The position numbers were made by a program, and so were the translations under genes. A stretch of DNA of 33,146 bases, taken from assembly GCA_031266805.1 (NCBI GenBank), contig JAISAH010000007.1, positions 1 to 33,146 of the forward strand. The letters are read 5' to 3'. Below the pieces are notes generated by a model, which saw only the letters and a program-made list of their open reading frames with translations, did no database searches and was not told where the DNA came from. The first letter of the stretch is position 1, and each line of letters opens with the position of its first letter. This document shows, piece after piece, positions 13,004 to 28,177 of the stretch. This DNA comes from Gracilibacteraceae bacterium (GTDB taxonomy: Bacteria; Bacillota; Desulfitobacteriia; Desulfitobacteriales; Syntrophobotulaceae).

Positions 13004-13204
13004 GTGAAAGAAAAAATCCATCCGCAATACGGGGCCAGTACCATAACCTGTGCTTGCGGCAATGTAATTGAAACCGGCAGCACCAAAAAGGACATAAAAG
13101 TGGAAATTTGCTCCAAGTGTCATCCTTTTTATACGGGTGTGCAAAGATTCGTGGATTCCGGCGGCCGGGTAGATCGTTTCAAGAGAAAATACGGCTTGCA
13201 GTAG
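13004..13204 (+). CDS. rpmE: 50S ribosomal protein L31, zinc-binding form
   Basis: A 66-residue L31 beginning at GTG ([10 protein letters not shown]). It has the four zinc-ligand cysteines of the C+ type: C16, C18, C36 and C39 (CAC...CSKC), followed by [26 protein letters not shown]31 bridges the ribosomal subunits; the zinc form is normally expressed when zinc is sufficient. It is a single gene, followed by the MITE-like element and then an intrinsic terminator. Confidence 0.95.
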
Positions 13205-13218
13205 CCGCTATAAGTTAT

Positions 13219-13380
13219 GGACACCTCTAAATACTCACTCGTCGCGCCTCCGCCGCTCTTTTCCCGTCAGGCGTCGCCCACGTCAGTCACCATACCGCCC
13301 CGGGTATGCCTCCTTCCTCCGCCTAGCCTGGCGGGAAAATTGCTGGCGGAGGCATCGACTCTGAGTATTTAGAGGTATCC
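13219..13380. mobile_element. MITE-like 162-bp element with terminal inverted repeats
   Basis: The ends are 19-bp inverted repeats with one mismatch: GGACACCTCTAAATACTCA at the left, and the complement of GGATACCTCTAAATACTCA at the right. Both ends are flanked by TTAT (13215-13218 and 13381-13384), a likely 4-bp target-site duplication. The interior nests further: GCCTCCGCC (13246-13254) pairs with 13345-13353, TTTTCCCGTCAGGC (13259-13272) with 13326-13339 using one G-U pair, and CATACC (13291-13296) with GGTATG (13303-13308). It has no coding capacity. It fits a non-autonomous miniature element that sits between rpmE and its terminator, so its RNA would fold into one long hairpin in the rpmE transcript. 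Confidence 0.72.
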
Positions 13381-13390
13381 TTATGAAACT

Positions 13391-13417
13391 AAGCAGAGCG
13401 GCGGCTCTGCTTTTCCT
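13391..13417 (+). terminator. Intrinsic terminator downstream of rpmE
   Basis: AAGCAGAGC (13391-13399), loop GGCG, complement 13404-13412, then a T-rich run beginning at 13411. It ends about 40 nt before the prfA start, so prfA needs a promoter within or downstream, or read-through. Confidence 0.7.
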
Positions 13418-13455
13418 TGCGCTTAGGAAGTGCCGACAAATCTTGGGGTGACGCC

Positions 13456-14529
13456 ATGTTTGAACAGCTGGAAGAGATGGAAAAAAAATATGAGCATCTG
13501 ACGGAGATGCTGACGCAGCCGGAAATCATCGCCAATCAGGCGGAGTTCCAGCGGATCGCCCGCGCCCAAGCCGCGCTGACGGAATTGGCCGCGGTTTTTC
13601 GCGATTACCGCGCGGCGCAGGGTGAATTAAGCGATTTGCAGGCGATGCTGGCGGACGAAGATGATCATGATATGCGGGCGATGATAGCGGAGGAGGAAAA
13701 AGAGCTGGACGAGCGGAGCGGCGCTTTGGCCGCCCGACTGCGGACGCTGCTCCTGCCGCGCGATCCGGATGATGAAAAAAACGTCATCGTGGAGATCCGC
13801 GCCGGGACGGGCGGCGAAGAAGCGGCGCTTTTTGCCGGCGACCTTTACCGCATGTATACGCGTTACGGCGAGGCCCGGCACTGGAAAAACGAGCTTCTCA
13901 GCGCGAGTTACACGGATATCGGCGGTTTTCGGGAGATCATTTTTATGCTTGAAGGGCGAGATGTATACAGCCGTCTGAAATTTGAGAGCGGCGTCCATCG
14001 CGTGCAGCGCATCCCGGCCACCGAGTCGAGCGGGCGCGTCCACACCTCGGCGGCCACGGTGGCCGTGCTGCCGGAAGCGGCTGAGGTGGAAATAGACATC
14101 GACCCTAATGATCTGCGCATCGATATTTTCTGTTCCAGCGGGCCGGGCGGCCAGTCCGTAAACACGACCCAGTCGGCTATCCGCGTGACCCATCTGCCGA
14201 CGGGGCTGGTCGTCTCCTGTCAAGACGAGAAATCACAACATAAGAACAAGGATAAAGCCCTGCGCGTTTTGCGGGCCCGTCTGCTGGAAAAAGCGCGGGC
14301 GGAAGCGCAGGACGAAATGGCCGAACGGCGCCGGAACCAGGTGGGGACCGGCGACCGCAGCGAGCGCATCCGCACTTATAATTTTCCCCAGGGCCGGGTG
14401 TCCGATCACCGCATCGGCCTGACTTTGCACAAGCTGGACGCCGTCCTGCTCGGCGATCTCGACCCTGTCGTCGACGCCCTGACGGACGCGGATCAGGCGG
14501 CGCGGCTGCGGGAGAGCGAGTGGGCCTAA
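13456..14529 (+). CDS. prfA: Peptide chain release factor 1
   Basis: A 357-residue class I release factor recognising UAA and UAG. The PCRF domain spans about 60-180 and the peptidyl-hydrolysis GGQ motif is at 231-233 ([10 protein letters not shown]). The central domain contains the [11 protein letters not shown] segment, and the C-terminal part contains [16 protein letters not shown]. The ATG at 13456 gives the family's usual N-terminus ([12 protein letters not shown]); an in-frame ATG further up lies over the terminator. The stop TAA overlaps the prmC start as TAATG. Confidence 0.95.
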
Positions 14530-27969: not shown

Positions 27970-27999
27970 AAAAAGCAGGAGAGTATCTCCTGCTTTTTT
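27970..27999. terminator. Bidirectional intrinsic terminator after the 6S RNA gene
   Basis: AAAAGCAGGAGA (27971-27982), loop GTA, TCTCCTGCTTTT (27986-27997), with T-runs at both ends: leftward 27974-27970, rightward 27994-27999. Leftward it would end 6S RNA transcription just before ogt. Confidence 0.8.
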
Positions 28000-28177
28000 C
28001 CCCACGCTGCCGTAAGACCGCCGGTTTTCTGACCCTGCTGAAGCAGGTGGGCGCCTGGAACCACGCTTCTGTCTTCTTTAAGTAAAAGCATGACATAATG
28101 AGTCGCTCACTGCCGGCTCCCGTGTCAAATTTAGGATCAAAACCATGCTTGCCCTACCAACAGAGCAGGAATGTCTG
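27986..28177 (-). ncRNA. ssrS: 6S RNA (SsrS), RNA polymerase regulator
   Basis: A gene-free stretch with its own strong promoter and terminator gives an RNA of about 190 nt, the size of 6S RNA. On the minus strand the 3' half holds the GGCGCCCACCTG segment, the hairpin CCTGCTTCAGCAGG, GGTCAGAAAACC and the ACGGCAG motif near the end that I associate with 6S RNAs of Bacillota and other phyla. CTGTTG near the 5' end pairs with CGGCAG, and the outer TCCTGCT pairs with AGCAGGA at the 3' end, giving the long closing stem. 6S RNA mimics an open promoter and sequesters sigma-70/sigma-A holoenzyme. Ends are estimated from promoter and terminator. Confidence 0.72.

Follow-up and report, generated by a model that had tools for sequence, protein, structure and literature searches.

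A probable mobile palindromic repeat of the MITE-like kind, with a conserved strand-polar core and changing arms, inserted between rpmE and its terminator

Does the long palindrome between rpmE and prfA in this Gracilibacteraceae genome belong to the operon as a fixed RNA structure, or did it arrive there as mobile DNA? In the 33,146-nucleotide stretch that was analysed (contig JAISAH010000007.1, hereafter the window), rpmE stops at 13204 and is followed by a 162 bp near-complete palindrome at 13219-13380. Its ends, GGACACCTCTAAATACTCA and TGAGTATTTAGAGGTATCC, form 19-bp terminal inverted repeats with one mismatch and are flanked on both sides by TTAT, as the initial annotation had described and as the sequence and an inverted-repeat search confirm. 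The search returns arms at 13216-13237 and 13362-13383 that are 91% complementary, and no other inverted pair within 400 bp anywhere in the window is as long or as good. No ORF of at least 60 aa is present inside the element. Copies were oriented by their core, and we call R the strand that carries GGAGGAAGGAGG...GACTGACGAC, which is the minus strand in the window. The features of the locus are the following.

13004..13204, plus strand: rpmE (ribosomal protein L31), the host gene 5' of the insertion; an ORF of 66 aa with orthologues in the congeners G001, G002 and G004
13215..13218, no strand: left flanking TTAT, a possible target duplication; from sequence, the empty site of G001 having a single TTAT, CATAAGTTTATGAAAC
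13219..13380, minus strand (the best-folding R strand): mobile palindromic element, family A; from own-genome copies, empty sites and strand folds
13219..13237, plus strand: left 19-bp terminal inverted repeat; from the inverted-repeat search and a genome end-match scan
13281..13320, minus strand: conserved core, GGAGGAAGGAGG - CATACC loop GGTATG - GTGACTGACG, common to families with unrelated ends
13362..13380, minus strand: right 19-bp terminal inverted repeat, whose outward reading has the Shine-Dalgarno-like TTTAGAGG(T)
13381..13384, no strand: right flanking TTAT; from sequence
13391..13415, plus strand: terminator-like hairpin with a T run (AAGCAGAGCGGCGGCTCTGCTTTTC), now split from rpmE by the insertion; from sequence, and directly after rpmE in relatives
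13458..14529, plus strand: prfA (peptide chain release factor 1), the downstream host gene; an ORF

The plus strand of the element folds, as annotated, into one long multi-step hairpin (-91.7 kcal/mol, z = -11.2, with 0 of 200 shuffles as good), and the minus strand fold is stronger (-103.2, z = -11.6). So stable a fold would suit a fixed, non-mobile regulatory RNA of the rpmE-prfA operon, but the element is missing from the same spacer in all three congeners and present elsewhere in the genome, and an Rfam search of 13150-13450 returns nothing at E <= 1. The structured RNA expected in the initial annotation holds insofar as the fold is strand-specific, but the best-folding strand is antisense to rpmE-prfA. 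We rejected the fixed operon RNA on the empty rpmE-prfA sites and give it next to no credence. The only Rfam match in the window at the gathering threshold is a 6S RNA (27995-28174, minus strand, RF00013, 67.4 bits).

Comparison of orthologous spacers shows what the insertion has displaced. In G001, the closest relative compared and 97% identical over rpmE, the spacer is empty and reads AAGTTTATGAAAC, and those of G002 and G004 also lack the element. The terminator-like hairpin AAGCAGAGCGGCGGCTCTGCTTTT, which lies just 3' of the element in the window, directly follows rpmE in the element-free G001 and G002, in agreement with the annotated separation of rpmE from its terminator. About 10 bp from the insertion point, the G001 spacer (L203, contig C47) has an unrelated palindrome of about 32 bp, AAGGAAGTACTGATTAATCAGTGCTTCCT, so that this spacer has acquired a palindrome on two occasions.

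Nine more copies, complete or almost so and 90-96% identical, are present in the same genome, one of them split by an inserted piece and one cut at a contig end; the genome also has two half copies and further loci that have only the element centre in common. A genome search for the 19-bp terminus, set as a test in the initial annotation, gave 44 matches with no more than 3 mismatches, whereas a reversed control pattern gave 2. Two copies on contig C141 are missing from G001, and other copies and solo ends are likewise insertions relative to it; for copy L010 (C76), whose core carries about 75 bp of inserted sequence, the two flanks are separated by 2 bp in G001. A small mobile DNA repeat, present in many copies in the genome, has recently inserted at 13219-13380. 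Its length (162 bp, below about 500 bp), non-coding sequence, 19-bp inverted ends, dispersed copies and empty sites support its description as a variant of a miniature inverted-repeat element (MITE), and the non-autonomous, MITE-like character first proposed is upheld.

MITEs normally have conserved ends and a disposable middle. Here a centre of about 50 bp, reading GGAGGAAGGAGG-CATACC-loop-GGTATG-GYGACTGACGAC on the minus strand in the window, is conserved among elements with unrelated ends, comprising families A to D and further relatives across the order, and it occurs with entirely different ends in the own genome itself (C11; C7 and C14). One collection scan located the core in five MAGs, at 60 loci in all. 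Three of these MAGs belong to a single project, named Gx485 (Gracilibacteraceae and Peptococcaceae), and the others are a Clostridiales and a Clostridia MAG. Within the order it is present in 10 of 74 genomes, with at least 10 matches each in G023 and G031, and family B is abundant in two Peptococcaceae MAGs. To judge from these sequences, the core-conserved superfamily is the reverse of an ordinary MITE. In three family B copies (L140, L173 and L178) the core contains a repeated insert of about 108 bp that ends in GGTTCGACTCC, similar to a tRNA T arm. Two candidate functions for the core were dropped: a hammerhead-like CUGANGA...GAAA, for which the required stem II does not form, and a short conserved ORF (MATDDNAA-like), whose start codon lies in a hairpin and is lost in family D.

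While the core stays, the arms change together. When arms were exchanged between copies, none of 2000 shuffles paired as well over the outer 18 bp as the real arms of families B and C; in family A, 37 of 2000 reached the observed value. Paired changes are found on both arms even 2-6 positions from the tip, terminal bases included, and may span several bases, as with ACAGA/TCTGT in L155 against TTAAA/TTTAA in relatives, or AGGCGT/ACGCCA in L009 against GGACACC/GGTGTCC. Template-switch repair of imperfect palindromes could explain some of this covariation. The multi-base changes in L155 and L009 resemble single conversion events and so favour an ordinary MITE, in which a DDE transposase would read the duplex ends only, template-switch correction would keep the arms alike and any wobble polarity would be the founder effect of a few master copies; this we regard as a real possibility that falls short of being probable, and the conservation of the centre in place of the ends argues against it. 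A mini-hairpin at a gene end is seen in both species (L079/L132 at C92:166, and L224 in G001) as GGACACC../..GGCGTCC and AGGCACC../..GGTACCC, its two arms having changed in a matched way, and may be a terminator.

The second difficulty for an ordinary MITE is that the two strands of the element are not equivalent. In 45 of 46 copies (34 of 35, and 11 of 11 among the wider relatives) the R strand has the stronger fold of the two strands, the advantage in 34 of 35 also holds when the arms alone are folded, and the R-strand fold is strong with DNA parameters as well. In the outer 18 bp of the arms G.T exceeds A.C by 30:5 distinct family/site/pair states (P = 2e-5), and in the 52-bp arms by 45:19 (P = 0.0016), counts that overstate independence since copies within a family share ancestry; family D is without wobble polarity, at 2 G.T to 3 A.C cells. 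As a G.T on one strand is an A.C on the other, a process that acts at the level of the duplex cannot produce a G.T bias. Most families share one polarity, although duplex-level processes have no means of distinguishing the R from the Y strand. One single strand, as RNA or as ssDNA, therefore appears to be under selection.

The pairing of the R strand extends into its centre. As read from correctly registered copies and the sequences themselves, the internal loop GGAGGAAGGAGG/GCGACTGACGAC pairs as G-C, G.A, A.G, G-C, G.A, A.G, A-U, G-C, G.A, A.G and G-C, and what had seemed an 'unpaired' centre is made of three tandem G.A/A.G motifs, which bring the R strand close to a continuous rod. Across copies the middle positions of the core are A-U or U.U followed by G-C or U.U, and the wider relatives keep all three tandem motifs, with U.U or A-U in the middle. 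We offer as speculation, and think it rather unlikely, that recognition of the element depends on the folded shape of one strand, an RNA or ssDNA rod with tandem G.A and wobble pairs, instead of on fixed end sequences, which would fit ends that change together and different end sets around one core across the order. The R strand is weakly oriented with respect to neighbouring genes (69 to 47, P = 0.05), a bias on which we rejected a strong orientation to genes, and elements between convergent genes are rare (2 of 35).

Strand-polar folding that remains strong with DNA parameters would also be expected of a single-strand transposition of the IS200/IS605 (PATE-like) kind, in which an R-strand ssDNA hairpin is excised and inserted. 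Two half copies at the 3' end of TnpB genes point the same way: the stop codons of these genes (L031 on C128, 990-2183, and L032 on C58, 1948-3143) lie inside a half copy of the element. A TnpB element was nonetheless rejected as the mother, given that both TnpB loci have one arm only and share sequence beyond the element tip; a MITE fragment caught by a TnpB element fits these two sequences better. A short palindromic repeat unrelated to the element, GTCATTCCGGGCTTGTCCCGGAATCC, recurs in several loci (L031, L032 and L140). PATEs derived from IS200/IS605 have no inverted ends, insert 3' of a fixed tetranucleotide and make no duplication. In the element, by contrast, the two ends are inverted repeats, and family B copies are flanked by TTA left and right whichever way they are oriented. 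With the weak orientation of the R strand relative to flanking genes also counting against it, we judge single-strand transposition of this kind decidedly improbable.

The target sites bear on what may have moved the element. At rpmE-prfA the filled site has TTAT/TTAT and the empty site of G001 one TTAT, with one T differing, and a target duplication of 3-4 bp is plausible from these sequences. The TTAT duplication originally proposed thus fits its own locus, but other family A copies are inconsistent with it: those at C141:1584, C141:3131, C141:42920 and C35 differ from their empty sites by a few bases in either direction, with no clean duplication. Most family B copies have TTA on both sides and one has TTG on both sides. 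Among the wider relatives a C precedes the terminal TAG...CTA-type ends in 11 of 11 and a G follows in 10 of 11, which places these elements in CTAG. IS630- and IS5-like enzymes use targets of the CTAG/TA and TTA types, and the CTAG and TTA flanks of the relatives are shared ground with an ordinary MITE. A transposase with matching ends, for which the initial annotation had proposed to search, was not found in the own genome, the congeners, the copy-rich MAGs G061 and G062 or the complete G023, of which the drafts may miss one, and no autonomous partner appeared as end pairs 0.7-3 kb apart in G000, G061, G062, G023 or G001. The term MITE is also applied where no autonomous partner is known, and the missing parent weakens the claim on the mover, not the MITE-like label.

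Copies appear to shorten after insertion. About half of the 44 ends sit outside full elements; they include mini-hairpins some 27-47 bp long and many solo ends of roughly 14-28 bp, dispersed next to genes. Since minis and solos also occur in family B and in the complete G023 (an 81-bp mini and a solo), they do not stem from faulty assembly. Both probably arose when long palindromes were deleted.

Some of these ends lie where a ribosome-binding site would be expected. Read outward, the family A end is TTTAGAGG(T), and 6 of the 44 ends, which offer a Shine-Dalgarno-like GAGG(T/C/G), have the ATG of an ORF of at least 100 aa at 1-4 nt past the tip, against 1.3% of random positions (binomial P about 2e-5, for a window picked after seeing the cases). 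At two of these ends (L063 and L056) the relative is without the insert, and its purine-rich motif is altered or displaced in the own genome; at C141:6372 the relative has GAGGAG where the own genome has GAGAAG, and at C38:79805 the AAAGGAATGG of the relative is AAAGGCCTGG in the own genome, displaced by the inserted end. On this sequence evidence, we infer that family A ends may be used as ribosome-binding sites.

Among known systems, the Correia repeat enclosed elements of Neisseria (PMC2649163) and the RUP of pneumococcus (PMC3049150) are non-coding units of 100-160 bp with terminal inverted repeats and a conserved core, present in many intergenic copies close to genes and folding as RNA. 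RUP and BOX occur preferentially between convergent genes (PMC3049150), where the present element is rare. Compared by anatomy and literature only, the element resembles Correia and RUP in size, inverted repeats, core and copy number, but its families combine different ends with the same core. We know of no report of a strand-polar wobble pattern for Correia or RUP. With IS630/IS5-type MITEs the element shares shortness, lack of coding sequence, inverted repeats and, in its relatives, CTAG or TTA flanks, and differs in its conserved middle, covarying arms and the lack of a transposon found with matching ends. REP/REPIN sequences with RAYT are likewise palindromic extragenic repeats with single and paired forms, but REPs are of 20-40 bp, whereas the full unit here is 162 bp with a conserved core.

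We propose that the element is probably a non-autonomous, MITE-like mobile palindromic repeat, one of an order-wide superfamily with a conserved strand-polar core and mutually complementary changing arms, which has inserted between rpmE and its terminator. Insertion would have followed the split of the species from the closest relative compared. Its units of about 160 bp keep their core, with arms that change freely but remain complementary, and would be moved in trans by a DDE-type transposase, as suggested by the CTAG and TTA flanks of relatives, of the kind used by IS630/IS5-like enzymes. Mobile lineages might last only where the R strand, in RNA or ssDNA form, can adopt an uninterrupted rod that includes G.U and tandem G.A pairs. 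After insertion, long copies would shrink to mini-hairpins and solo ends, and some family A ends may have come to occupy the ribosome-binding-site position of the next gene. The strand signature, which duplex-level transposition leaves unexplained, provides a testable case for selection on the single-stranded form of a bacterial mobile repeat, and the Shine-Dalgarno-like ends of family A illustrate concretely how host translation start regions may be taken over by a mobile repeat.
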